Shown here: positions 49,460-64,000 of the stretch, in pieces
Layout of the letters: every line of letters begins with the position of its first letter
Numbering within the stretch: the stretch's first letter is position 1
Source: Myxococcota bacterium
GTDB lineage: Bacteria; Myxococcota_A; Polyangia; Polyangiales; Houyiibacteriaceae
DNA length: 64,000 nt
Direction of reading: 5' to 3'
Assembly: GCA_028284955.1 (NCBI GenBank)
Contig: JANQQS010000042.1
Coordinates: forward strand, 1-64,000
Notes under the pieces: generated by a model
What the model saw: only the letters and a program-made list of their open reading frames with translations
Told to the model about the DNA's origin: nothing
Database searches by the model: none
Translations under genes and position numbers: made by a program

Positions 49460-50128
49460 ATGGGCGACGCCCCTCATAGCACGCTCTTGATCCTCGGCGC
49501 CCTGACCGTGGTGCCGTTTGCATTCATGACCGCGACCAGCTTCGTCAAAATCTCGGTCGTGTTTTCGATTCTGCGCAACGCGCTAGGTACCGGGCAGGTA
49601 CCTTCAGGTGCCATCGTAACGGCGTTTTCGGTGATTCTTAGTCTCTACGTGATGGCGCCCGTGGGCAGCCGGATCATCGCCGCAGCTCAGCCCTCGGCGA
49701 TGAGCATTGACGTCAACAATCCCTTGGGAGAGGCGAGCCGGCCAGCGCTCTGGGAAACCGCGCAGAAGGGACTCGAACCACTGCGTGCATTTCTCAAGAA
49801 GAACTCTGGATCGCGCGAACGAGGATTGTTCACCGACCTTGCTCGCCAGGTGCGACCCAAAGATCAGCGGGCCGATGTTTCTCCCGACGATCTTCTGGTG
49901 GTTCTGTCTTCGTTCCTCGTTACGGAGCTCGCGGAGGCGTTTCAAATCGGCTTTCTGGTCTTCGTACCGTTCTTGGTGGTGGACCTGGTCGTGGCCAACA
50001 TCTTGCTCGCCCTCGGCATGCACATGATGTCCCCCACCACAGTATCGCTTCCCTTCAAGCTGCTTCTTTTTGTGCTCGTAGACGGCTGGTATTTGCTCTC
50101 GCGCGCGTTGGTGCTCGGGTACGCGTGA
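49460..50128 (+). CDS. sctR: type III secretion export-gate protein SctR/FliP
   Basis: A 222-residue membrane protein with the family core TATSFVKISVVFSILRNALG and, in the C-terminal half, DDLLVVLSSFLVTELAEAFQIGFLVFVPFLVVDLVVANILLALGM. These match SctR/FliP along most of their length, and the size is that of SctR. It forms the pore of the export gate with SctS and SctT (FliQ, FliR), which are not in the window. The stop overlaps the next start as GTGA. Confidence 0.9.
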   Translation: MGDAPHSTLLILGALTVVPFAFMTATSFVKISVVFSILRNALGTGQVPSGAIVTAFSVILSLYVMAPVGSRIIAAAQPSAMSIDVNNPLGEASRPALWETAQKGLEPLRAFLKKNSGSRERGLFTDLARQVRPKDQRADVSPDDLLVVLSSFLVTELAEAFQIGFLVFVPFLVVDLVVANILLALGMHMMSPTTVSLPFKLLLFVLVDGWYLLSRALVLGYA

Positions 50129-51621
50129 ACTCCGCGCTGACCAAGCTTCACGAGGCCTTTCATCGCCCTCCATCGGCTCTTTATCAACTGGTCGATCGCG
50201 CGATCTGGGGCCTGATATTGCTCTCCGCGGGGCTCCTGTTGGTGGAGCCGGTGGTTTCCGGCCCGGGCCTCCGCGCGGTGCGAGCCCTCGATCGCGTGCT
50301 GCTCGGCGTATTCGTCGTCGAGCTGGTTCTCCGGGTCGTTTCCGTTCAGCCTCGCGAGCTCGACGTATTTCAGCGGTCTCGCTGGGGGCGTATGCGCGTC
50401 CACGTGACGTCCCGCGTGTGGTTTCTACTGCGTCCCCTTGTGCTGGTGGATTTGCTGACGGTGATGGCGCTGGTACCCGCGCTGCGCGGGCTGCGCGCGC
50501 TTCGTTTGTTGCGCCTGCTTCGCTCGGGTCGATTCTTTCGCTATCGAAACCCTTTCGATGGGTTTGTGCGGGCGTTCGAAGCCGACCGGATGTTGTTCTT
50601 GTTTGCCTTCACCGTGCTCGGGGTCGAGACCCTGCTCGGCGGCGTCAGCATTTTCTTGGTGGAACGAGGACAGGGAACGCAAATCTCGTCTTTGGGCGAC
50701 GGGCTTTGGTGGGCCATCGTCACCCTCACCACGGTCGGCTTTGGCGACATCACGCCGGTCACTACCGTCGGCCGAATCATCGGCAGCGCGCTGATGGTGG
50801 GCGGGATGTTCACGCTGGCCCTTTTTGCCGGCATCGTCGGCCATAGCCTTTTGCACGCCGTGCTCGGCATTCGAGAGGAGCAATTCCGTATGAGTGGATA
50901 CGTCGATCACATCATCCTTTGTGGGTACGAAACAGGCGCGAACCCTTTGCTCCAAGCGCTTCGGCACGAAATCGACCTCGAGCAAAATCGCGTGGTGGTG
51001 TTTGCCAATCGCGAACGCGCAAGCGACTTGCCTCCTGAATTTTTGTGGGTGAGCGGCGACCCCACAAAAGAAAGCGAGCTCGGCAAAATTCGCCTCACCC
51101 ACGCGCGCACGGTGGTTGTGGTGGGCGAACGCAGCCAAACGCCACAGCACGCAGATGCGGCCACCATTCTTACGATCTTCACCATCCGAGCGCACCTCGC
51201 GAAGCATGCCCAAACCCATTCGCGGCGGCGTCCCGTGCATATTGTGGCGGAGATTCTCGACTCCGAAAACGCAGCGCACGCCCGAACCGCAGGAGCTGAC
51301 GAAGTAGTGGAGACCCGCCAGGTGGGCTTCTCCATGCTTTCGCACGCCGTCGCGTATCCGGGCATTGCCGACGTAACCAGCCACGTGATCCAGTCTGGCT
51401 GGCAAAACCTCTACGCCGGCCGCATGCCCGACGCGGATGCAAGCGCGCTCAGTTTCGGTCAGGTCGCACAACAGATTCGTGAGCAGCACGGTGCACTAGT
51501 GCTTGGCATTCGCGATCCGGAAACCGGAGAAGAACGCCTCAATCCATCCGACGCGACTCCGATCGCGCCGAGCGCGCAGGTCATCTACCTGGCCGACAAG
51601 CCGGTGTTGCCAGCGCCGTAG
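50125..51621 (+). CDS. voltage-gated K+ channel with RCK (TrkA-N) domain
   Basis: The six-span architecture has an S4-like voltage sensor with Arg at every third position (R121, R124, R127, R130, R133, R136) and the selectivity filter TTVGFGD (202-208). A cytosolic TrkA-N domain follows (DHIILCGYETGANPLLQAL), then a second regulatory part. Such channels are gated by voltage and by nucleotides or Ca2+. The GTG start at 50125 overlaps the sctR stop (GTGA), implying coupled translation, an unusual partnership. Confidence 0.93.
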   Translation: MNSALTKLHEAFHRPPSALYQLVDRAIWGLILLSAGLLLVEPVVSGPGLRAVRALDRVLLGVFVVELVLRVVSVQPRELDVFQRSRWGRMRVHVTSRVWFLLRPLVLVDLLTVMALVPALRGLRALRLLRLLRSGRFFRYRNPFDGFVRAFEADRMLFLFAFTVLGVETLLGGVSIFLVERGQGTQISSLGDGLWWAIVTLTTVGFGDITPVTTVGRIIGSALMVGGMFTLALFAGIVGHSLLHAVLGIREEQFRMSGYVDHIILCGYETGANPLLQALRHEIDLEQNRVVVFANRERASDLPPEFLWVSGDPTKESELGKIRLTHARTVVVVGERSQTPQHADAATILTIFTIRAHLAKHAQTHSRRRPVHIVAEILDSENAAHARTAGADEVVETRQVGFSMLSHAVAYPGIADVTSHVIQSGWQNLYAGRMPDADASALSFGQVAQQIREQHGALVLGIRDPETGEERLNPSDATPIAPSAQVIYLADKPVLPAP

Positions 51622-51945: not shown

Positions 51946-52320
51946 GTGAGTGAAAAACGAGTGCGGGTGATGGTGATCGATGACGATTCCGTCACGCTTG
52001 AGCTGATTGGCGCGCGCCTGAGCGCTGCGGGGTACGAAGTTCAGACCCGGGAAGAGGCGCTGGGGACGTCCGAAGCGGTACGAGAGTTCCAGCCCGATGT
52101 GGTGGTGGTGGATGTTCATATGCCGGGGCTGAGCGGAGATCGTTTGGCGCCGCTCCTTCAAGAAATGCCTGGGGCGCCGAAATTAGTATTTCACTCCTCC
52201 ATGGACGAAGGAAAACTCGCAGATTTGAGCGCCCTCAGCGGCGCAGCCGGGTACATCAAAAAGTCGCCCGGGGCTCAACGCTTTGTTGAGCGACTCGAAG
52301 CCGCGATCGACCGAAGATGA
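51946..52320 (+). CDS. single-domain response regulator (CheY-like receiver)
   Basis: The 124-residue protein has the acidic pair VIDDDS, the phosphorylation Asp in VVVVDVHMPGLSG (about residue 56), the Ser in VFHSSMD and the Lys in YIKKSP, so all receiver residues are present. It has no output domain. GTG is the start codon. The next gene begins at 52317 inside this stop (ATGA), so it is coupled to the hybrid kinase and probably accepts or drains its phosphoryl group. Confidence 0.88.
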   Translation: MSEKRVRVMVIDDDSVTLELIGARLSAAGYEVQTREEALGTSEAVREFQPDVVVVDVHMPGLSGDRLAPLLQEMPGAPKLVFHSSMDEGKLADLSALSGAAGYIKKSPGAQRFVERLEAAIDRR

Positions 52321-54920
52321 GCAAGAACCTCCGCATGCGTCTTGCGATGCACGCGAAGATCATCGTTCCCAACGTGCTCATTTTCGCGGCGCTGGCTGCG
52401 TTCGAATACGGGTATTTTCCCTCTCACTACGAACAGCGCTTGCTTGCCGATCTTCATGGAGAGGCGGAGACGGTCTCCGCGGTGGTGGCCTATACGCTGG
52501 CTCCTGCGGTTGATTTCGAGGAACCCGAGCTTGCGCGCGAAGCGCTTCTCAGCGCGAGCCGAATGGACGAGCTTGTCGCGGTGGGGGTGTATCTTGACGA
52601 TGGGCGATTGTTTTCTGCCTATCCTTCGTCTCACAAACTGCCGCGCACGCTGTCGGATTTTTCGTCGCGAACTTTGTCGTCGGTGCTCGTCAAACAAACC
52701 GAGATTCGTCATAGCGCGGAAGGTCGTCGGGGAACTCTGCTGTTGCTCGCCGACGAAACCGGCGTTTTTGAGGAAGCGCAGCGTTTTCGCTCCATTGCGA
52801 CGATGATTGCGGCGGCTTTGGTGGCGATGGGGCTGCTGGTCGGTGTCGGAATCTCGATGTTTACGTTTCGGATGAGCGAGAGCCGAGCTCGCGAAGAAGC
52901 AGCGCACAAATCGAATCGCGCGAAGAGCGAGTTTCTTGCGCATATGAGCCATGAAATTCGCACTCCGCTTACCGGCGTGGTCGGCATGGCCGAGCTGCTG
53001 GGCAAATCCGAACTAAGCGCTCGGCAGCGTCACTTCGTGCGTACGATCCGGCGGTCTGGGCAGTCTTTGCTTGCCACCATCAACGACATTCTCGATTTTT
53101 CGAAAATCGAAGCCAACCAGGTCGTGCTCGAAGACGTTCCTGTGGATTTGGTGTCCCTCGTGGATGACGCGGTGGACACGGTTGCGCCCACGCTGAAGCC
53201 TGGCGTTCGGCTGTTGTCGGTGCTCGGCGAGGATGTTCCCCGGTGGGTGCTCGGCGATCCGCTGCGCTTGCGGCAGATTTTGGTGAACCTTGTCGGCAAC
53301 GCGGCGAAGTTTACGGACCGCGGGCATATATTGCTTTCGATACGGGCTCAGGTAGCAAACGGAGGCAGCGTCCTCGAATTTGCGGTCGGAGATACCGGAA
53401 TCGGCATTTCTGAGAGCGCGCAAAGAACACTCTTCGAGGCGTTCACCCAGGCCGACCGTTCGACGACGCGTCGCTACGGCGGAACGGGGCTCGGGCTGGC
53501 GATCAGCGCGTCGCTGGTGCGTGCGATGGGCGGCAGTTTGGAGGTGACGAGCGTTCCTGCGGAGGGCAGTCGATTCTTCTTTCGGGTGGCACATCGGCGC
53601 GTCGACAATGAGGAGGTTGCGATATTCCAACCGCATGAAGGCATCCGAGTTGTCCTGCATGGAACAGGCGTCGAGGCTGACTTGATCGCTGAGCAGTTCG
53701 ATGCGTGGAACGTGTCGTACGTCAGGATGGAGGAAGAAGGAGCCACCGTTTCTGCGTGCGACGGTGGCCAACAAGGTGACCAACACCTCTGTTTGAACCC
53801 AGCGTTGAAGGGGCTTGAGTACATTCCGCCGGAACACCTCGTGGTGGTATGCGATTCCGAGAGCGTTCTGCCCGAGGTCGACGGACGGGCCCAGATTGTG
53901 TACCGGCCGATCGGTCCTGGGCGTCTACTCGAGCTCTTGCCCCACGCGGAGCAGCCGATTGGGGGCCATGCGATCCAGGGAGCGCAAGGGAATCCGACTC
54001 AGCCTCCATCGCGCATGCGCGCCGGACCATCAAGAGCACCTCTCCCTGAGGAGAATGCAGCGGATCTACCAAATCTGCATCGCGTGTTGGTGGTCGACGA
54101 CGGATCGGTCAACCGAGAAGTGGTGGGCGCGATGTTGGACTACCTGCAGGTGCCGTATGCGTTGGCCGAGAATGGTGCCGAGGCCCTCCTCCAGCTCGAT
54201 TCGAAGCATCGTTTTACTGCGGTCTTGATGGACTGTGAGATGCCGGACATGGATGGCTACGAAGTCACGCAACGGGTCCGAGCTGCCGAATGCGCGGAGA
54301 ATCGACGACAGGTGCCTATCGTCGCGCTGACCGCGGACGCAACCGATGTCGCGAAAGCGAAGGCGCGGGATGCAGGCATGGACGAATTTCTAAACAAACC
54401 CATCCCTCTCGAAGAGCTGCGCAACCTATTGTCGCGGTTGTCTTCGACGGCGCAGTCGTCTGAAGAGGTGCAGTTGCCCCAAGAGGCGCAGTCGTCTCAA
54501 GGGGTACAGGCCACCTCAGAGGCGCAGGTGTCTTCCGAGGCGCTAGATCCGGAGATTCTACGCGAGCTCCTGGAGCTTCAGAGAGCAACTCGGCCGACGT
54601 TTTTTGCAGATATGGCTTCCACCTACGTGGACGAATCCGCCAAGCGAATCGAGGCGATCTCAGAGGTGTTCGATTCAGCCACGGTGGGTGAACGCGAGCT
54701 CGCGACGCTCGGTACCGAGGCACACGCGCTCAAAGGCGCGAGTATGCACATTGGCGCGCTTCCGCTGGCCGACCTCGCAGCTCAGCTGGAGTCGCATGCA
54801 GGAACCGGAGATGAACTGTTTGCGCGGACCATCGCGGAACAAATCGGAGAAGAGTATCGCCGAGTACGTCAGGCGTTGTACGAGCATTGCGGGGCTGAAC
54901 GTAGCGAGGACGAGGCGTAG
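52317..54920 (+). CDS. hybrid sensor histidine kinase with CHASE8-like sensor, REC and Hpt
   Basis: Two membrane helices (residues about 14-32 and 160-182) flank a periplasmic domain of about 125 residues. Its pattern (YEQRLLADLHGEAETVSAVVAYTLAPAVDF..., VGVYLDDGRLFSAYP) is that of CHASE8. HisKA with the His in HMSHEIRTPLTG (about 212), an ATPase with NAAKFT, DTGIGI and GTGLGL, a receiver-like degenerate stretch, a canonical REC (MDCEMPDMDGYE, about 638) and an Hpt with HALKGAS (about 802) follow. A phosphorelay is therefore fully encoded. CHASE8 is the domain through which YfiR controls YfiN. Confidence 0.92.
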   Translation: MSKNLRMRLAMHAKIIVPNVLIFAALAAFEYGYFPSHYEQRLLADLHGEAETVSAVVAYTLAPAVDFEEPELAREALLSASRMDELVAVGVYLDDGRLFSAYPSSHKLPRTLSDFSSRTLSSVLVKQTEIRHSAEGRRGTLLLLADETGVFEEAQRFRSIATMIAAALVAMGLLVGVGISMFTFRMSESRAREEAAHKSNRAKSEFLAHMSHEIRTPLTGVVGMAELLGKSELSARQRHFVRTIRRSGQSLLATINDILDFSKIEANQVVLEDVPVDLVSLVDDAVDTVAPTLKPGVRLLSVLGEDVPRWVLGDPLRLRQILVNLVGNAAKFTDRGHILLSIRAQVANGGSVLEFAVGDTGIGISESAQRTLFEAFTQADRSTTRRYGGTGLGLAISASLVRAMGGSLEVTSVPAEGSRFFFRVAHRRVDNEEVAIFQPHEGIRVVLHGTGVEADLIAEQFDAWNVSYVRMEEEGATVSACDGGQQGDQHLCLNPALKGLEYIPPEHLVVVCDSESVLPEVDGRAQIVYRPIGPGRLLELLPHAEQPIGGHAIQGAQGNPTQPPSRMRAGPSRAPLPEENAADLPNLHRVLVVDDGSVNREVVGAMLDYLQVPYALAENGAEALLQLDSKHRFTAVLMDCEMPDMDGYEVTQRVRAAECAENRRQVPIVALTADATDVAKAKARDAGMDEFLNKPIPLEELRNLLSRLSSTAQSSEEVQLPQEAQSSQGVQATSEAQVSSEALDPEILRELLELQRATRPTFFADMASTYVDESAKRIEAISEVFDSATVGERELATLGTEAHALKGASMHIGALPLADLAAQLESHAGTGDELFARTIAEQIGEEYRRVRQALYEHCGAERSEDEA
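54447..54536. repeat. degenerate tandem repeat, 18 bp x 5, between REC and Hpt
   Basis: Five 18-bp units encode TAQSSE, EVQLPQ, EAQSSQ, GVQATS and EAQVSS in the linker of the hybrid kinase. Only A/V-Q is constant, so the array is old but the unit length is intact. Confidence 0.78.
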
Positions 54921-54962
54921 CGAACGAATTACTGGCAGGCCGCGATTCAAAAGGGGGGATGA

Positions 54963-56549
54963 ATGTCGGCACGAGCGCGAAGTCTGTACAAGGAACAACT
55001 CAAATCTTGGAAGGCGCGAGCCAGGTTCTCGCTGCCGGTAGTTGTTCTCGTCTTGGTCACCCATCCGGTTTTGGCACAGGAGCCGCTTGAAAGAGAGATT
55101 GAATCAGAGACTGCGGAGGAGGAACCAGGCGAAGCCGAGTCTGAAGTTGTCGGTGGTACGGAGAGCGAAGCGGAACCTGAGGCGGGTGAAGAAGACACGA
55201 AACTTCAAGCCATCGAAAGCGTGGATGGCGAAACGGGGATCGAATCGTCTGCCGACGACGAGCCTCAAAGCATGGAACTTGAAGTCCTCGACGGTTCGAG
55301 TGCTGAAGGCGAAAACGAAACGGAGAATGACGGTGACACGGGAGGCACCGAACTCGAGGCGATGTCGCTAGAGTCCTTGGCATCCGCACACGATGACGAA
55401 CATGCGGCATCGGCGGACCGATTTCGGCGCACGACAGCGAGCGGAGCATACAGCGGGCCCACGCTGCAGTTCTTCGCGCTGCATGGGTACGCCACGTTGA
55501 CTTACGCAGTAGCCGAAGATTCGTTTGGTGCCTCGTATCCGCAGATTTTGCTGCCCGGGATCAGCCCTGCGCTCGGGGAAAATCTAGGCGGGTTTCGCTC
55601 AGATGCTGCGGTATTCGTGGGCACCGATTCGAATCTCGACGTATCGGCGACGGTCGAGATCCATTTCGTGGGCACAGGGTTCGATCCGATTGTCACTGAG
55701 GCAAAAGTTGTGTGGCAGCTATCGCGCATGTGGGAAGACAAGTTGCCGCAAGCGACACTCAGGTTGGTGGGCGGGCGTTTCTGGTGGCCGTTCGGACAGC
55801 ACAATCCCGAGTGGTTTTCCTCGGTGAATCGTTTCAACACGATTTCACCTGCCACGTCGCTCGCGGTACCCGCACACCACAACGAAACGGGATTGATGGC
55901 AGAGGGCGAACTGGAGCTCATGCGCCACCTCGGTCTCAGCTGGCTGTTTGCTATCGGCAACGGGCCGCGCGGCTTTGCGCTCTCCGACAACGTTCCTGCG
56001 GGTCCTTTTGATTTCGATGGAAATCGAACCATGACCGGGCGACTCGAGGTCGGATGGGACGATATAGTCCGCGTAGGGTTTAGCGCAGCCGGGGGACGTT
56101 TTCGGTCCCCGCCTGCAGACCCGATGGCCACGCCAGATCCTGCGGATGGAGTAAATGCGTTTGGCGCCAAGTTCACTTCTCTTGGTCCCCATGCTTCGCT
56201 GCAGATTCAAGGGTTCGAGGCGCTGGGTTTCGTTTACTTCAGCAAAGAGGAGCTCGATGACGCGCCGCGGGATCGGCTCGATCGAATCGGCGTTTTGGCA
56301 GAAGCCCAATATCGTCTGCCCTGGGACGTTCCCGTGCTGTCTGATTTGATGCCGAAGTTCCGGTATTCGTGGGCGACGGTGGACGAACTCACGGGTGGCG
56401 ATAGCGGGTTTCAGCAGCTTGGCTTCGGGGTGAACTACCGCCCGCATCCGCAGCTATTGGCGAAGGTAGAGTATGTGTTGAACCGCTCCGAGCATTTTGA
56501 AGACGTGTCCGAGGACGTCTTCAACGTCAGTCTGTCTGGGAGCTTTTAG
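54963..56549 (+). CDS. outer-membrane porin-like protein with acidic linker
   Basis: A signal peptide (RARFSLPVVVLVLVTHPVLAQ) is followed by a highly acidic region of about 100 residues (Glu/Asp-rich) and a C-terminal barrel ending in Phe (VFNVSLSGSF), the typical last residue of an outer-membrane protein. Strands such as TLRLVGGRFWWPFGQHNPEWF fit a porin. The strong ribosome-binding site AAGGGGGG precedes it. It lies between the CHASE8 kinase and the YfiR-like gene, so it may play the outer-membrane role of YfiB. Confidence 0.82.
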   Translation: MSARARSLYKEQLKSWKARARFSLPVVVLVLVTHPVLAQEPLEREIESETAEEEPGEAESEVVGGTESEAEPEAGEEDTKLQAIESVDGETGIESSADDEPQSMELEVLDGSSAEGENETENDGDTGGTELEAMSLESLASAHDDEHAASADRFRRTTASGAYSGPTLQFFALHGYATLTYAVAEDSFGASYPQILLPGISPALGENLGGFRSDAAVFVGTDSNLDVSATVEIHFVGTGFDPIVTEAKVVWQLSRMWEDKLPQATLRLVGGRFWWPFGQHNPEWFSSVNRFNTISPATSLAVPAHHNETGLMAEGELELMRHLGLSWLFAIGNGPRGFALSDNVPAGPFDFDGNRTMTGRLEVGWDDIVRVGFSAAGGRFRSPPADPMATPDPADGVNAFGAKFTSLGPHASLQIQGFEALGFVYFSKEELDDAPRDRLDRIGVLAEAQYRLPWDVPVLSDLMPKFRYSWATVDELTGGDSGFQQLGFGVNYRPHPQLLAKVEYVLNRSEHFEDVSEDVFNVSLSGSF

Positions 56550-56579
56550 ATCTTTCAGGATGGCGCAGTCAGTTGGGTA

Positions 56580-57161
56580 GTGAGGCGGGGTTCTCTGGCC
56601 GTGGTGGCTGCGCTCGTCGCCGGGTCGATATGTCTTCTCGAACCTCGAAGTGCGTTCGCGACCGAGATCATGTCGGCGGAGCAACAGGTGCTGCTGCTCT
56701 TTCGTGTGTTGTCCTATGATGCGGCCCAGGCGGCACGAAAGCCGTTGAGGATCGCCGTGCTCTATGTTCCTCAGAAGCCAAGTAGTCGGGGTGCGGCAAA
56801 CGAAATCTCCCGTGCCTTGGAACAAGTCGGGCAACGACATCCTGCATTGCGTGGAACGCAGGTCGGGCTCTTAGCCTATCGAAAAATGGAGGAGCTTGAA
56901 CCCGTGCTCATTCGGAACTCGATCAATCTGGTTTACCTATCCACCGGTTTTGGTCCTGAAACGCGTGCCATTTCGAACCTCTGCAACCGTCGCAGTATTC
57001 CCTCGGTGGCTGGCGTCGCAGGATACGTCACCGCAGGAGTCGCGGTCGGGGTCGTGCAATCGAATGGGCGCCCCCGGATCGTGGTAAACCTCCCCGCGAG
57101 TCGCACACAAGGGATGCGTTTGCATGGTTCGCTGTTGCGTTTGGCCACCGTCGTTCGATAG
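56580..57161 (+). CDS. YfiR-family (DUF4154) periplasmic protein
   Basis: A signal peptide (MRRGSLAVVAALVAGSICLLEPRSAFA) is followed by a 165-residue domain of the YfiR/DUF4154 type. It contains VLLLFRVLSYD, PLRIAVLYVP, LVYLSTGFG and SVAGVAGYV, and ends with a Leu-rich helix (RLHGSLLRLATVV). YfiR binds the periplasmic CHASE8 sensor of YfiN and keeps it inactive until released. Here the CHASE8-like protein is the hybrid kinase two genes upstream. The start codon is GTG 56580. Confidence 0.82.
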   Translation: MRRGSLAVVAALVAGSICLLEPRSAFATEIMSAEQQVLLLFRVLSYDAAQAARKPLRIAVLYVPQKPSSRGAANEISRALEQVGQRHPALRGTQVGLLAYRKMEELEPVLIRNSINLVYLSTGFGPETRAISNLCNRRSIPSVAGVAGYVTAGVAVGVVQSNGRPRIVVNLPASRTQGMRLHGSLLRLATVVR

Positions 57162-57164
57162 TTC

Positions 57165-57830
57165 TCATAGAGAGCCCTGAACGCCAATCGAGAAACCTCG
57201 TCCGCTCATCTGAATTCGTGGGGTAAGTCGACGTCGGTGGCGATTTCGGAGTTGGCGTTCGTGCGCGAAGAGCGCTGCACCGAGGCCGGTGATCGGGGCG
57301 AGCAAAATTCCGCTCAAGTACAACACATCGGCGGCTGTCGACGACTTCATCAAAAGCCCGATCCCAATCAATGTCGCGGCTGGCGCTGAGCCGATGTAGG
57401 CGGCGAGGATATCCCAGCCCAGCGTTGAGCCAGTGCGGTCGGGCCCTACTGCGGAAGAACCAGCCCAAACTCCCAGACCGGCGATCGCGGGCGCGGTCAC
57501 GCCGGCGATGGCGAGGAGGCCAGCGACGCCACCATCGCTACATCCATCAAAAGCATCGGTTCCGCTGCAGGGCAAAAACGCCATCGCAGAGAACACTGCC
57601 GCGGACAGCACGAGTCCACTAAACGCGCCTGCGAAACGTCGACCCGCGCGACGATGCTGGGGATCGAGTTCTTCAATCTCGTCGAGACTTAACCTTGTGT
57701 CGGGGCCTATAAGCGACGGTTCTTTTCGCTCGGGGGTGCGCTCAAACCTGGGCGGCCTCGCGTGAGAAATCGTGGGCATCCACGTGATAAGCATCAACCC
57801 AAGCACGAGGAAAAAACGCAAGCATCTCAT
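57165..57830 (-). CDS. membrane protein of unknown function
   Basis: ATG 57830 gives a signal-like first helix (MRCLRFFLVLGLMLITWMPTISHA). Three more hydrophobic segments follow (FAGAFSGLVLSAAVFSAMAFL, GLLAIAGVTAPAIAGLGVW, LGWDILAAYIGSAPAATLIGIGLL). A basic C-terminal tail ends GFSIGVQGSL. Two Cys in the loop (PCSGTDAFDGC) may form a disulfide. I do not recognise the family. It converges with the YfiR gene, with three bases between them. Confidence 0.7.
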   Translation of the reverse strand: MRCLRFFLVLGLMLITWMPTISHARPPRFERTPERKEPSLIGPDTRLSLDEIEELDPQHRRAGRRFAGAFSGLVLSAAVFSAMAFLPCSGTDAFDGCSDGGVAGLLAIAGVTAPAIAGLGVWAGSSAVGPDRTGSTLGWDILAAYIGSAPAATLIGIGLLMKSSTAADVLYLSGILLAPITGLGAALFAHERQLRNRHRRRLTPRIQMSGRGFSIGVQGSL

Positions 57831-58146
57831 GATCGTACTTCCTTTCATCTCTGAGATGATCGAGCTGCTGTGCACGTTGCATGCCGATTCTCCGCGAGGC
57901 GTTTTTTGACGGTTGTTGTGGGCTCTGCGGTCTCTCTAAGCGATTGATTTTCGACGAAGACTTCACAGTGTGGCGTACCTGGCTCAGCAACGTGAACTGA
58001 CGGCACGGGTCTGCTGAACATGGATTGCTGGCCGGATCTGTTCGTTGAAATACGATTCACGCAAGTCCGGGTAGCGCCTGTCATGCCAGTTTTCTTCTTG
58101 CCGCTATACTTGCCCGCAAGCTCGAGAGGCGAAGGTTTCGTTCGCC
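57831..58146. other. divergent intergenic region, no gene recognised
   Basis: About 316 bases between the divergent membrane-protein and kinase genes. Short frames here are not convincing. It must hold the two promoters, but no clear -35/-10 pair stands out. Confidence 0.5.
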
Positions 58147-59358
58147 ATGAAATCACTCTTGGGGGTGTGTATGGAGGGTGAAGTCCGAGATGTTCTGCAG
58201 ACTCTTTCGGAAGCGAGGTCTTGTACCGATGCCCGAGTGAACCGATCGCCGGCGCCGCTCTGGGATAAGCTAGAACTGCAACTCAACGAACTCGCTATGA
58301 TGGTGGGAAGCCTCGAGCGCCGAGTCGAACATCTTGAGGATGAACGAAGCGCGTTGGTGGAGAACATCAAGTTTGGCGTTTTGATCGAAGACGCCTCACG
58401 ACGGGTGAGCTACGCAAACAAGACTTTTTGTCAGCTGTTCGGCGTTCCCTTGGCGCCCCAGCAGCTCGTCGGGCTTGCATGTTCGGAGCTTGGGGAACAG
58501 GCGAAGTTGTCGTTCGAGCGCAGTGAAGAGTTCTTACCTCGAATTCTCGAGATCACCGAAGCCAAGATTCCTGTCCACGCGGAAGAGCTCGTCATGAAGT
58601 GTGGAAGAATCATTGAGCGCGACTACATTCCCGTGTGGAGCAATGGATCGTTTCGGGGCCACTTGTGGCAGTTTCATGACGTCACCGAACAGCGGCAGAT
58701 CGTAGAGTTACGAGAACGGTTCGCGCATCAGGTGCTCCAAGCCCAGGACCGCGAACGAAGAAAGATTGCGCGAGAGATCCACGACAGCATTGGTGCCTCG
58801 CTCACTTCACTTTCCATCCGAACGCGGATGCTCGATGAAATCGGCGCCGAAGAGGACTACTCGGCGCATGTGAACCAGCTGCAAAAGCTTACTGCCGCGA
58901 CGCTCGGGGAGGCGCAGCGATTGGCGAAACAGCTCCATCCTCTCGCGCTCGAACAGCTGGGCATCGCAGAGGCGATTCGGCAGCATGCGGAAGATCTTTC
59001 ACAAGCTCATCAAATGCCTATCGATGTGGATGTGATGGGTGACTGGCAGGGCGTTTCTGAGACAATGGCCACGGCGCTGTATCGGGTGGTGCAAGAAGCC
59101 CTAAACAACGTCATGAAGCACAGCGGCGCCGACCACGTATCTGTATTCGTAGAGCGAAAAACTTCGGAAATACGAGCCGTGGTCGAAGACAATGGTCATG
59201 GCTTTATCGAGGGTGCAGAGACACAAGGGATGGGTTTGCAGAGCATGCGGGAGCGTGTCTCTTTGCTCAAAGGCGAACTCTCGTTTGAAACGCCACCCCG
59301 AGGAGGAACTGCGGTGTGTCTTCGGATTCCGGCGCCCGCGTTCGACAAACTGGGATAG
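58147..59358 (+). CDS. NarL-type sensor histidine kinase with PAS domain
   Basis: The 403-residue protein has no membrane span: a coiled-coil-like N-terminus (residues 45-75), a PAS domain (SALVENIKFGVLIEDASRRVSYANKTF) and a HisKA_3 dimerisation helix with the His in RKIAREIHDSIGASLTSLS. An ATPase with VVQEALNNVMKHS and DNGHGF and GMGLQSMRERVSLL completes it. It senses a cytosolic or diffusible ligand and phosphorylates the NarL-type regulator five bases downstream. ATG 58171 is an alternative start. Confidence 0.92.
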   Translation: MKSLLGVCMEGEVRDVLQTLSEARSCTDARVNRSPAPLWDKLELQLNELAMMVGSLERRVEHLEDERSALVENIKFGVLIEDASRRVSYANKTFCQLFGVPLAPQQLVGLACSELGEQAKLSFERSEEFLPRILEITEAKIPVHAEELVMKCGRIIERDYIPVWSNGSFRGHLWQFHDVTEQRQIVELRERFAHQVLQAQDRERRKIAREIHDSIGASLTSLSIRTRMLDEIGAEEDYSAHVNQLQKLTAATLGEAQRLAKQLHPLALEQLGIAEAIRQHAEDLSQAHQMPIDVDVMGDWQGVSETMATALYRVVQEALNNVMKHSGADHVSVFVERKTSEIRAVVEDNGHGFIEGAETQGMGLQSMRERVSLLKGELSFETPPRGGTAVCLRIPAPAFDKLG

Positions 59359-59363
59359 GTGGG

Positions 59364-60044
59364 ATGGCGGGAGGCTCAACAGACCCGATTCGTATCGTCA
59401 TCGCTGATGACCATGCAGTTTTGCGAGAAGCGCTTGCGAGCTACGTCGATGCCCAAGCTGATATGAATATTGTCGGGCAAGCTGGTAGCGGAGCCGAAGC
59501 GCGTGAGCGGGCCCAAGAATTGAAACCGGATGTGCTCGTGGTGGACATATCCATGCCTGGCGAGAACGGGATTCAGACCATCGAAAAGCTGTCTGCGGAA
59601 TGCCCCGAAGTGCGTTGCTTGGTGCTGACGATGCATGAAGACCATCAATTCCTGCGTTCAGCTCTCGCCGCGGGAGGAGCGGGCTATCTGACCAAACGAG
59701 CCGCCAGCGGGGAGCTGCTCTCGGCGATCCGCCAAGTCGCGCAAGGGCGTTCCTATATCAACATCAAACTGGAGCAGGTGGGCCTCGCCGAAGTCGTGCA
59801 GCGGGAATCGCCCCCGAGCGAATCGAACCAAGTTCCGCTGAGCCCTCGCGAACGTGAAGTGCTGAGCATGGTTGCGCAGGGGTATACGAGCAAGGAAGTA
59901 GCCCGCCAGCTGGGCATCAGTAGTGCCAGCGTAGACACCTACCGCCTACGTATTACCGAGAAGTTGCAGGCGAATCATCGAGCGGATCTGGTCCGCTACG
60001 CTTTGCGCAATGGTCTGCTGGAGAAAGAATATCCGGGCGACTAG
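59364..60044 (+). CDS. NarL/FixJ-family response regulator
   Basis: A receiver domain (IRIVIADDHAVLREAL, phosphorylation Asp in DVLVVDISMPGENG, Thr and Lys in VLTMHED and YLTKRAA) is followed by a LuxR-type helix-turn-helix (LSPREREVLSMVAQGYTSKEVARQLGIS). I use ATG 59364, behind AGGTGGG; the earlier in-frame start at 59316 lies in the kinase gene. It forms an operon with the histidine kinase gene and should bind DNA as a dimer. Confidence 0.93.
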   Translation: MAGGSTDPIRIVIADDHAVLREALASYVDAQADMNIVGQAGSGAEARERAQELKPDVLVVDISMPGENGIQTIEKLSAECPEVRCLVLTMHEDHQFLRSALAAGGAGYLTKRAASGELLSAIRQVAQGRSYINIKLEQVGLAEVVQRESPPSESNQVPLSPREREVLSMVAQGYTSKEVARQLGISSASVDTYRLRITEKLQANHRADLVRYALRNGLLEKEYPGD

Positions 60045-60182
60045 AGAGCGATGGCTCGCGTCTGTCCGACATCTGTCTAACGCTGCGTCAGGAACATCAC
60101 CACGTGGCTGTCACGCATCGTCCTGACTGTTCACATCCCGATATTGGGGACACATTCCCGCTAAGGCAAAGGGCGGTGTGTG

Positions 60183-61058
60183 ATGCAAAACGATCTAGAG
60201 TGCGGAGACATCGTCGCGGGGGTGTACCGCATTGATACGGTTCTCGGTCGCGGCGCGGATTGCACCGTATTTTCCGCAGAGCACACGGTCACCGGTATGA
60301 GCTTTGCCGTCAAGTGGCTAAGACCAAAGCTCGCAGGAACCGACGCGACCCAGCGGCTTATTCATGAAGCGCGGGCGATGATGCGGGTTCATCATCCCAA
60401 CATTGTCCGCTTGCGTGATCTTGAGTGCGATCGCGGCACAGTCTTCCTCGTCATGGATTGGTGTCGCGGCGTCTCATTGAAAAACTATTTGCACGACTAC
60501 CGGATGGACGTTGCCAACGCGGTATCTGTGCTGCTGCCGTCGATTCGAGGCGCAGCTGCGGCGCATGGGCGGCGCGTCGTGCATCGAGATGTGAAACCGG
60601 AGAACATCATCGTCAGCGAACGCCAAGGTAAGCGCGATCAGGAGACCGTGCTTATCGATTTTGGCGCTTCGCTGATCGAGGATGAAATTGAGGAAGGGTC
60701 CGCGCTGCTTCACGAGATCTGCGGCACACCGTTCTACATGGCCCCCGAGCAGATTCGCGGAAATGAGCCGGTCGATGGTCGTTGTGACCAGTACGGTTTT
60801 GCGTGCGTTCTCTATGAGATGATCGAGGGAAAAAAAGCTTTTTCGGAAGAAAACCTCGGCTTGGCGATGAGCCAAAAACTGGAAGGCCGGCCAGCGCCTT
60901 TTCGGCAACAGAAGATTCCTCGGCGCCTTCAGTGGATCATTCGGAAGGCGCTCGAGCCGTCGCCGCATCGCCGATTCGCGAACATGACGGAGTTCGCCGA
61001 CGTGCTCGAGCCATATCGGGCGCGAGGTCGGCGAAGCTCCATTCGGACGCAACACTAG
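60183..61058 (+). CDS. Ser/Thr protein kinase, soluble
   Basis: The 291-residue protein is almost only a kinase domain: VLGRGADCTVFSAEH as Gly-loop (its second Gly is replaced by Ala-Asp), Lys in AVKWLRPK, HRDVKPENIIVSE, LIDFGASL and FYMAPEQIRGN. The catalytic residues are all there, so it is probably active, but the loop change is unusual. No membrane helix follows. Start ATG 60183 is preceded by AAAGGGCGG; GTG 60180 is possible. It lies about 140 bases behind the two-component pair. Confidence 0.9.
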   Translation: MQNDLECGDIVAGVYRIDTVLGRGADCTVFSAEHTVTGMSFAVKWLRPKLAGTDATQRLIHEARAMMRVHHPNIVRLRDLECDRGTVFLVMDWCRGVSLKNYLHDYRMDVANAVSVLLPSIRGAAAAHGRRVVHRDVKPENIIVSERQGKRDQETVLIDFGASLIEDEIEEGSALLHEICGTPFYMAPEQIRGNEPVDGRCDQYGFACVLYEMIEGKKAFSEENLGLAMSQKLEGRPAPFRQQKIPRRLQWIIRKALEPSPHRRFANMTEFADVLEPYRARGRRSSIRTQH

Positions 61059-61068
61059 CTATTCGACT

Positions 61069-62949
61069 CTAGCTACGTAATCGTCTCCTGATGATGAGCG
61101 CGAGCGGAGCAATCAGCCACCACAGCGCGGTCGGGGCATCCGGGTTCGGTTTCGTCGTGACAGCGCAACCGAGCGCGCCTCCTGAAACGCCAGGGCTGAC
61201 CGCGGCGTCGAGGTACGCGGGAACGCCGTCTCCGTCGAAATCGAGCGCATCGTTCGGGTCGCCATCTTCGTTCGGGTCGGCTCCTTCTTCGACGGTCGGT
61301 CGGCCGTCGCCGTCGTCGTCGTCGTCGAGATAGTCGTCTACGCCGTCCCCGTCGGTGTCGCCGTTTTCGATTTCATGCCGGGTCAGTATTCCGTCGCCAT
61401 CGTCGTCGGTGTCCAAGAAGTCTGGTCGACCGTCCCCGTCCGTATCGGGGCAGGTCTCGGGCATCGACACGTCGTCGCATTCTTCGGAATCGTTGACTCC
61501 GTCTCGGTCGCGATCGTTTGTTTCGTCGGTGGGTTCGCGGTCGGTTGACGACATCGGATCCAGATAGTCCGGAACGCCATCTTCGTCTTCGTCGGGGCAA
61601 GGGTTTGCGCCATCCGCGCATTCCACAGAGTCATTTCGACCATCGCCGTCGCTGTCGACGTCCTGCCAGTTTACGTTTCCATCGCCGTCTATGTCGTTTC
61701 CGTGGGTGGATCCGTCGGCTGCTTCCTGAGCGGTGGGAATGCCATCGCCGTCGTCATCTGGGTCGAGGTGATCGGGGCTGCCGTCGTTGTCGGTGTCGAC
61801 ATCCTCCGAGGGGCGCTCACTGCGCGTCGGCACGCTGTCCCCATCGTCGTCTGGATCCAGGTAATTGGCGACTCCGTCGTTATCCAGGTCTTCGCAGGCG
61901 CTTGGATCGCTACACTCCAACTCTGTCGGCACGCTGTCCCCGTCGTCGTCGGGGTCGCGGTAGTCGGGCGTGCCATCGTCATCGGTATCGACCGCATCGT
62001 CCGGTTGGCCATCGCCGTCCACGTCTGGCTGCTCGTCCGCGGTCGGAATCCCATCCCCGTCGTCGTCGGGATCAGCGATGTCCGGCGTGCCATCGCCGTC
62101 CGAATCGCGGCTATCTCCGCAGCTGGCTCCTTCGTAGAGGTCCGCCACGCCGTCGCCGTCGCTGTCGCTGTCGCTGTCGCCGTTTCCCGATGTGACGGGA
62201 AGCAGGACATCGCCGCCCAACACCTCAAACGCGGAGGTGCTTAGTGTGATGTTGTTGCATGGGCCTCCGAGGCGGCTCATTCCTTCGAAGTTCGAGCAAT
62301 CGATTCCATCGTATCCGTCCACATGGCTCGGAGCGTACATAATCTCGAGAGGGTCCGCCGAGCAGTTGTGGTTGGTCGACCAGTCGATGCGAATCGGATA
62401 GAGGCCCGGCGCTCCAAATGTGACGAACCGGTAGCGCTTCCAATTGCGACTGATCCATCCGAACTCTTGAACCACCACGCCGCCAATGGTGACCCGAACC
62501 GCATCGTTCGAGTGAACGCCGAGAGTCCAGTTGACGGGCATTCCCGCTGTTCCCCGCACATTGATCAAGCCTTCCACGCGCATCGCGTTGCTGCCCGTTC
62601 CAGATGTTCCGGGCCAGTCCGCTCCTCCTCCGATCTCGCCGCGGGAGTTGCAGCGGTCGTTGAGCCGGTCGACGTTGACGGCTGGAAAACGCACATTGTC
62701 CACAAACTCCGCGACATCCGGGAGGGTGGGATCATCGATGCGGGCCTGAAAATAGTCGAGGTTGTCGGGGTCGTGCGGGTCTGGCCCGGTGGTGAGGCTG
62801 ACCGACTGCGCGCAGACTCCCGAAACGGCGGGCGACTCAATCGGTGCTCCGATACTGGCCTCGGCTGGGATATCCAGCTGCGCCATAGCGGGCACGGCGG
62901 AACCGAGGATTGTTGAAAAGGCCACAATACTAAGCGGGAACTTCGTCAT
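61069..62949 (-). CDS. secreted TSP3-repeat protein with PA14-like domain and MYXO-CTERM-like tail
   Basis: A signal peptide (MTKFPLSIVAFSTILGSAVPAMA) is followed by a PA14-like beta domain (residues about 100-210: GMPVNWTLGVHSNDAVRVTI and GLYPIRIDWSTN). Then come about a dozen thrombospondin-type-3 calcium repeats (DxDxDGxxD, to residue 580) and the tail GALGCAVTT...ALWWLIAPLALIIRRRLRS. The tail, with Gly-Cys, one membrane span and an Arg cluster, resembles MYXO-CTERM sorting signals, so the protein is expected to be surface-anchored after processing. ATG 62949 was chosen for the signal peptide. Confidence 0.88.
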   Translation of the reverse strand: MTKFPLSIVAFSTILGSAVPAMAQLDIPAEASIGAPIESPAVSGVCAQSVSLTTGPDPHDPDNLDYFQARIDDPTLPDVAEFVDNVRFPAVNVDRLNDRCNSRGEIGGGADWPGTSGTGSNAMRVEGLINVRGTAGMPVNWTLGVHSNDAVRVTIGGVVVQEFGWISRNWKRYRFVTFGAPGLYPIRIDWSTNHNCSADPLEIMYAPSHVDGYDGIDCSNFEGMSRLGGPCNNITLSTSAFEVLGGDVLLPVTSGNGDSDSDSDGDGVADLYEGASCGDSRDSDGDGTPDIADPDDDGDGIPTADEQPDVDGDGQPDDAVDTDDDGTPDYRDPDDDGDSVPTELECSDPSACEDLDNDGVANYLDPDDDGDSVPTRSERPSEDVDTDNDGSPDHLDPDDDGDGIPTAQEAADGSTHGNDIDGDGNVNWQDVDSDGDGRNDSVECADGANPCPDEDEDGVPDYLDPMSSTDREPTDETNDRDRDGVNDSEECDDVSMPETCPDTDGDGRPDFLDTDDDGDGILTRHEIENGDTDGDGVDDYLDDDDDGDGRPTVEEGADPNEDGDPNDALDFDGDGVPAYLDAAVSPGVSGGALGCAVTTKPNPDAPTALWWLIAPLALIIRRRLRS

Positions 62950-63017
62950 GGGTCCGAACATACAAACTTGCGCGAACGGATCAACCCGACGGCGTCCACA
63001 TGAATTGCCGGACTTTT

Positions 63018-64000
63018 TCAGTTCCACTCTTCGTCGCTTACCGGCTTCACCTCGCGCGAAAGAGGCTGCCGCATCCAGGTTTCGAGTGCAGCCTCGAGCG
63101 CCACCACGCGTTCGCGCAGAATTTCGGTCTTTAGCCGATCTGATAGACCTTTCGCGAGGGTTTGCAGATGAAGCTGTCGTTCCCGCCAAAGATCCTGGGT
63201 CAGCAGCGACAATGTTCGTTTGAGTTCAAATAGCTGACTGCGCGCCGAGCGATAGGCCAAGTCGACTCGCCCTGTTTTGTCACGCACGGCAATGGTATTT
63301 GGCCAATCCCACCACAGCGTGATGAAGCCGGCGACCTGCATACGTTCCCGGCTGCCCATGGTATTTGACGGCGCAAAAATAGATACGTCTTCGCGACGCG
63401 TGGAGCCTGGTGTGCGAGCCCGAAATCGCATGTGCACGCTGGGTAGCCGGAAGCTTCGATATTGGGTCTTCCAATCTTTTTGGATTGCAGCTTCGTGCAG
63501 ATCGTTCTCGTAAAGCACTCGTTCCACAACGTTTCGCAGCGGTGGCGTTCGGTGTAGTCGTCGTTTTGCCCAACTCTGACTTTTGCGATCGAGGGTCGGC
63601 ATTTGTTGAGGAACAGGAGCCGTAGTCCAGATGGCTCCGCCGTCGAGAATCCACCACTGTGGCGACGCTCCCGAGTTTGGACGGGTTGCCCGCATTCGAG
63701 AAATCAATCGTCGGGTCATGCCGACCAAAAAAGGTTGCCACGTTTCTCCGTTATCGTCTGATGAATACACAAAGGTGGTGGGTTTCGTCACTCGTCGCAC
63801 CACTGACGAAATATCCGTATTGGCCAGGCCTGGGCTGAACGCTTTGGGAAGCGATGCATCGGGCAAAGGAAACGGTTTTGCGTTGCGTGCTGCGACCACG
63901 ATGCGCGTGCCTCCGCGTTCGTTTTGGCCAACCGTGACCTGGCGAATGGTGTGGCGACCGAAAAAGCTCGTGTCTATGTTGTTCCACGACGTGCCGCTGT
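63018..64000 (-). CDS. Asp-box/BNR-repeat protein, 5' end outside the window
   Basis: The frame is open to the window edge, so the N-terminus is missing. The upstream part reads WNNIDTSFFGRHTIRQVTVG, then VVAARNAKPFPLPD and the Asp-box SSDDNGETWQPFL, which is a BNR repeat of sialidase-like propellers. The C-terminal 100 residues form a long helical segment (RSQLFELKRTLSLL...DRLKTEILRERVVALEAALETW) with coiled-coil character. It lies 68 bases upstream of the TSP3-repeat gene on the same strand, so the two may be cotranscribed. The function is unknown. Confidence 0.7.
   Translation of the reverse strand, partial: SGTSWNNIDTSFFGRHTIRQVTVGQNERGGTRIVVAARNAKPFPLPDASLPKAFSPGLANTDISSVVRRVTKPTTFVYSSDDNGETWQPFLVGMTRRLISRMRATRPNSGASPQWWILDGGAIWTTAPVPQQMPTLDRKSQSWAKRRLHRTPPLRNVVERVLYENDLHEAAIQKDWKTQYRSFRLPSVHMRFRARTPGSTRREDVSIFAPSNTMGSRERMQVAGFITLWWDWPNTIAVRDKTGRVDLAYRSARSQLFELKRTLSLLTQDLWRERQLHLQTLAKGLSDRLKTEILRERVVALEAALETWMRQPLSREVKPVSDEEWN

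Follow-up and report, generated by a model that had tools for sequence, protein, structure and literature searches.

The locus described here raises the question of what could convey signals from the outer membrane to a periplasmic repressor of the YfiR type when its operon encodes a histidine kinase and a barrel protein, with neither a diguanylate cyclase nor YfiB. In Pseudomonas, YfiR represses YfiN through the periplasmic domain of the latter and is itself captured by YfiB at the outer membrane (PMC3375315, PMC4655355). The C-terminal surface of Pseudomonas YfiR binds YfiB next to its N-terminal linker, and this site overlaps the predicted YfiN site (PMC4655355). Divergent YfiN homologues with kinase, HPT, GGDEF-EAL and MCP outputs, as well as the loss of yfiB, are reported by Malone et al. 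2012 (PMC3375315).

The window, that is, the whole stretch of 64,000 nucleotides of a Myxococcota contig that was analysed, carries the operon on its forward strand (Table 1). The original prediction, made from the sequence, had placed a receiver, a hybrid kinase, an outer-membrane barrel and a YfiR-family protein consecutively on one strand, with the first two genes coupled by an ATGA overlap. The open reading frames were indeed found in this compact arrangement, with the 4-base overlap at 52317-52320 and with gaps of 42 bp between the kinase and barrel genes and 30 bp between the barrel and YfiR genes. A gap of 324 bp separates the operon from a K+ channel gene upstream, and the next gene downstream lies on the opposite strand.

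Table 1. Features of the receiver-kinase-barrel-YfiR operon (window coordinates)
Feature	Position	Strand	Evidence or details
Single-domain response regulator, GTG start	51946..52320	+	Pfam PF00072, 57.2 bits; no output domain
Hybrid histidine kinase, 867 aa	52317..54920	+	TM - CHASE8 - TM - HisKA - HATPase_c - REC - Hpt (Pfam)
Periplasmic CHASE8 domain, motif APAVDFEE	52455..52715	+	PF17152, 31.3 bits (cut-off 27)
Porin-like outer-membrane barrel protein P0003, 528 aa	54963..56549	+	Signal peptide, acidic linker, barrel, C-terminal F
Acidic N-terminal linker, predicted periplasmic, residues 39-150	55077..55412	+	Net charge -38
LSLEEL-type box EAMSLESLAS, residues 132-141, proposed YfiR-docking segment	55356..55385	+	PSSM
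Periplasmic YfiR/HmsC-like protein (DUF4154), one Cys	56580..57161	+	PF13689, 43.6 bits (cut-off 24.9)

Upstream (49460-51621), the gene of a SctR/YscR-family protein of the type III export pore (NCBIfam yscR, 224.9 bits, cut-off 208.6) overlaps by 4 bases the K+ channel gene, whose product bears a TrkA-N/RCK domain; no other secretion genes were seen among the flanking genes scanned around it. Downstream (58147-61058), a gene for a PAS-HisKA_3 (UhpB/NarX-like) kinase overlaps that of a LuxR-type response regulator, and a gene for a Ser/Thr protein kinase comes next. Two open reading frames of the minus strand, 57165-57875 (236 aa), convergent with the YfiR gene, and 61069-63189 (706 aa), gave no Pfam match.

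Assignment of the last gene product to the YfiR family was borne out both by the DUF4154 profile and by structural comparison. Its AlphaFold2 model, obtained from a five-sequence alignment, reached a pLDDT of 91.6, and Foldseek matched it to P. aeruginosa YfiR (4yn7; E 4e-5, TM 0.66/0.71) and to the YfiB-YfiR complex, the fold match being to 4yn7/5eb1. Small substrate-binding proteins were placed above YfiR in the Foldseek search, and VIA likewise scored the best substrate-binding domain (Z 16.7) above YfiR (Z 14.3). Therefore, the protein as modelled has the YfiR fold, which is akin to that of a single lobe of a periplasmic binding protein. The mature protein is very basic (pI 11.2, net charge +12), and its single cysteine sets it apart from Pseudomonas YfiR with its two conserved Cys pairs (PMC4655355), so that redox sensing by cysteines of the Pseudomonas kind is unlikely. 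Searches with phmmer against PDB sequences yielded nothing useful for either the YfiR protein or the N-terminus of the kinase. Twelve YfiR sequences aligned together proved too diverse to serve in a pattern scan; a narrower alignment found 5 loci, all in MAGs titled Myxococcota, Myxococcales, Myxococcaceae or Deltaproteobacteria.

The CHASE8 call for the kinase, previously founded on a sequence pattern, is now backed by a Pfam match above the cut-off (residues 47-133), and REC (590-704) and Hpt (766-852) complete, together with HisKA and HATPase_c, the domain set of a hybrid phosphorelay within one protein. The motif APAVDFEE aligns with its equivalents in other YfiR-linked CHASE8 domains, with which it shares an AAxxF(D/E)D-type pattern. 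The hydrophobic YfiR-binding motif of YfiN, AAVVF, includes a phenylalanine (PMC3375315) that appears to be retained in CHASE8, as judged from an alignment of the linked domains only. The closest relatives of the kinase occur in two loci (L087 and L064), both adjoining YfiR and a TonB-dependent receptor (TBDR) gene; identity is 34% over 692 aa to the kinase of G234 and 40% over 405 aa to that of G222, which is of the same family and has a copy truncated by the contig end. For the receiver, the best match among the class loci is that of L064, from the same family (37% over 99 aa).

Since the window YfiR gene and kinase are the sole DUF4154 and the sole CHASE8 found in the 6.07-Mb assembly, lie about 4 kb apart, and represent a pairing repeated across the class, their proximity is not a matter of chance. 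DUF4154 and CHASE8 each occur in 60 of the 289 class genomes, and their genes stand repeatedly side by side. We annotated 80 neighbourhoods with profiles built for this analysis. Of the class YfiR loci, 48 are flanked by 4 kb or more of sequence to the left and to the right. Among these, a kinase neighbour was present in 32, an MCP-type neighbour in 9 and either of them in 36; a TBDR gene was found in 34, and in 27 it was accompanied by a kinase or MCP gene. Representative TBDR, MCP and CHASE8 assignments were confirmed by Pfam. No GGDEF was detected near YfiR genes in 81 loci by a motif search, as distinct from a profile search, and 17 of these 81 had neither CHASE8, histidine kinase nor TBDR within 5 kb, some of them being cut by contig ends.

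Conservation of the four-gene order in other Myxococcota had been put forward as a check. The set of parts (a single receiver, a CHASE8 hybrid kinase, YfiR and an outer-membrane barrel) does recur, but the order is shuffled. The window arrangement is receiver-kinase-porin-YfiR; in the same-family genome G222, where the barrel is a TBDR, it is TBDR-YfiR-receiver-kinase, in G234 YfiR-TBDR-receiver-kinase, in G171 YfiR-TBDR-kinase-receiver, and in G270, G244, G267 and G200 kinase-receiver-YfiR-TBDR. Conservation thus applies to the set of parts and not to their order, and the window has another kind of outer-membrane part: both in the class and in plasmid records of alpha-, beta- and gammaproteobacteria the usual partner is a TBDR, to which the porin of the window is an exception.

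In the Sphingobium plasmid record the YfiR gene follows a TBDR gene and precedes that of a CHASE8 kinase (the domain was profile-tested), and on Caballeronia and Pseudoalteromonas plasmids it precedes a gene for a GGDEF-EAL protein whose N-terminus looks similar. The latter operons, of TBDR-YfiR-GGDEF/EAL type with an N-terminal box (C. grimmiae plasmid p1, L192; Pseudoalteromonas sp. Bsw20308 pPBSW1, L195), connect this type of outer-membrane partner with the turnover of c-di-GMP. In many class loci (L050, L054, L077, L079, L082, L092, L095, L102 and others) YfiR is paired with CHASE8-HAMP-MCP proteins, an architecture confirmed by Pfam for L079, with CHASE8 slightly below the cut-off; the pairing suggests a YfiR-gated, chemoreceptor-like output. 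In L058, L063 and L065 the YfiR gene is followed by genes for a sulfatase-like protein, integral to the membrane and about 818 aa long, and for a protein of MCP type.

Several features place the locus among known systems. Like the YfiBNR (TpbB) system of P. aeruginosa and E. coli, it encodes a putative periplasmic repressor of the DUF4154 family, a CHASE8 inner-membrane protein and an outer-membrane partner alongside each other. Unlike that system, it has a hybrid kinase rather than GGDEF as output, a porin-like barrel instead of an OmpA/Pal-like lipoprotein, and no Cys pairs in YfiR, and strict membership in YfiBNR was therefore rejected. The locus belongs to the divergent YfiNR class with kinase output, in which YfiR adjoins a YfiN-like sensor kinase and yfiB is lacking, as described in the part of Malone et al. 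2012 (PMC3375315) considered here; a YfiR homologue and a CHASE8 sensor kinase share one operon in the window and again across the class. Substitution of a phosphorelay for GGDEF, which had been foreseen for this kinase and agrees with its Pfam domains, is not new as a principle, because replacement of GGDEF by histidine kinases was published in 2012 (PMC3375315). What distinguishes the window from the modules in that part of the paper, where no outer-membrane barrel partner is described, is the barrel, together with the single-domain receiver and the REC-Hpt relay. Also related are the TBDR-YfiR-CHASE8 kinase operons of Sphingobium indicum pSRL1 (L188) and of the class loci, where an outer-membrane protein, YfiR and a CHASE8 hybrid kinase are likewise encoded in one operon and the barrel shares with the window porin an N-terminal LSLEEL-type box; the window barrel differs from theirs in being porin-like, without a plug and with a long acidic linker.

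An outer-membrane barrel with an acidic linker had been predicted at the position of P0003; the linker is plainly there, while the barrel call is weaker, as PF13505 scored 17.4 bits against a cut-off of 28.7. The protein has a signal peptide, a C-terminal phenylalanine with alternating hydrophobic residues, and 12 amphipathic strands, compared with 7.1 +/- 2.1 in shuffled sequences. AlphaFold2 run on the single sequence (pLDDT 31) did not model the barrel fold. Pfam revealed neither plug nor TonB-dependent barrel domains (PF07715, PF00593) in P0003, and no OmpA match in this sole candidate of the operon for an OmpA/Pal-like YfiB. Homologues of P0003 were found neither in 28 relatives, 289 class genomes, PDB sequences and PHROGs nor by a pattern scan of GTDB contigs. 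A second porin-like protein without a Pfam match (448 aa from its likely start) is encoded directly upstream of the YfiR gene in L079 (G066:C538); it lacks the LSLEEL box (PSSM score 3.1), and kinship with P0003 is not claimed, as the pairwise match is too weak (E about 0.005).

The YfiR-linked TBDRs begin with a DL(A)ELSLEELLxxxVVTASR-type segment ahead of the plug. Searched with two regular expressions, this box was present in 29 of 38 linked TBDRs and in 2 of 68 others, taken from 20 of the same genomes irrespective of YfiR (Fisher p 7e-16, a value which overstates independence because the linked receptors cluster in few clades). The plug tree, with 7 label changes, groups these TBDRs, both the linked and the box-bearing ones, in a few clades, and the evidence amounts to a handful of independent associations, not 38. 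A related segment occurs in the six YfiR-adjacent TBDR genes examined in the plasmid records, from Sphingobium, Caballeronia, Pseudoalteromonas and Indioceanicola. The linker of P0003, 112 residues long, ends shortly before the barrel in a box that scored 17.1 bits, true boxes giving 15.9-28.5, with a PSSM built from TBDR boxes only and P0003 excluded. This score was reached by 0.15% of shuffled linkers and by 0/600 random windows, and the resulting p-value of 0.0015 is not that of a blind search, since the motif had been spotted by eye before the test. The box of P0003 is devoid of the TonB-box half present in TBDRs. In the TBDR of the same-family G222 an acidic stretch (net -26) precedes the box.

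One plausible explanation of these findings, for and against which the chances seem to us evenly balanced, would be a trans-envelope signalling unit built on a YfiR-CHASE8 core, in which the N-terminal segment of the barrel sequesters YfiR and thereby switches the phosphorelay. Periplasmic YfiR would bind CHASE8 and hold the hybrid kinase in one state. The barrel, usually a TBDR in relatives and porin-like here, would capture the basic YfiR (net +12, versus -38 for the linker of P0003) by means of the acidic linker and the LSLEEL-type box, its N-terminal segment thus assuming the role of YfiB in Pseudomonas. Release of YfiR from CHASE8 would then alter the phosphorelay from HisKA through REC and Hpt to the single-domain receiver, the product of the first gene of the operon being the putative phosphate acceptor. 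We infer by analogy the repression of the kinase by YfiR, the binding of YfiR to the box, the direction of the switch and the function of the receiver; by the same analogy, P0003 may do what YfiB does.

The YfiR-CHASE8 kinase module might instead be real with the porin providing no input, as a regulated or merely co-transcribed transport gene, and YfiR itself sensing a small molecule or envelope stress. We regard this as possible, if somewhat improbable. The YfiR fold corresponds to one lobe of a periplasmic binding protein, with substrate-binding proteins as best structural matches (Z 14.6-16.7), and YfiB-independent activation, considered by Malone 2012 (PMC3375315), would also favour YfiR as the sensor; that P0003 is an orphan and the L079 porin has no box speaks for a porin that is not an input. 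Against a mere transport gene stand the repeated pairing of YfiR with outer-membrane receptors that share the pre-plug box, and the presence of both acidic linker and box in the unrelated barrel P0003.

A separate problem is whether the box and linker are general N-terminal features of TBDRs, serving TonB interaction or export and unrelated to YfiR, so that the match in the porin is a coincidence. The box of TBDRs does adjoin a TonB-box-like stretch, the linked receptors are phylogenetically clustered, and the match in P0003 is short and was made post hoc. Nevertheless, we consider this explanation unlikely, as the box is nearly absent (2/68) from unlinked TBDRs of the same genomes, and the motif also stands shortly ahead of the barrel in the porin, a protein in which there is no TonB box for it to serve.

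The gene neighbourhood of YfiR and outer-membrane receptors is visible in public annotation. Neither a link between TBDRs and YfiR nor the shared box was found in the open-access papers searched, and outer-membrane channels sharing a short, docking-like N-terminal motif seem not to have been described previously. Signalling by an outer-membrane receptor through an N-terminal periplasmic extension is familiar from the transcriptional TBDRs of the FecA-FecR type. Unlike these, the window has no STN domain, FecR or ECF sigma factor, and the relay would consist of YfiR and the kinase.

YfiB can explain the capture of YfiR by the outer membrane in operons that have yfiB and in no others, and most divergent Yfi-type operons are without it. 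We tentatively suggest, holding it to be possible rather than probable, a widespread and apparently undescribed principle of signalling across the envelope, in which an outer-membrane barrel (a TBDR or, in this operon, a porin) would dock YfiR with its N-terminal acidic linker and LSLEEL box and so pass information on to an inner-membrane kinase, a chemoreceptor-like protein or a c-di-GMP enzyme; the docking device would be portable between unrelated barrels. If barrels with the docking box are the missing input, a pathway and a mechanism open to testing would be provided for many unassigned TBDRs and CHASE8 proteins, in which one periplasmic repressor would let kinases, MCPs or enzymes of c-di-GMP turnover sense transport or ligand state at the outer membrane.
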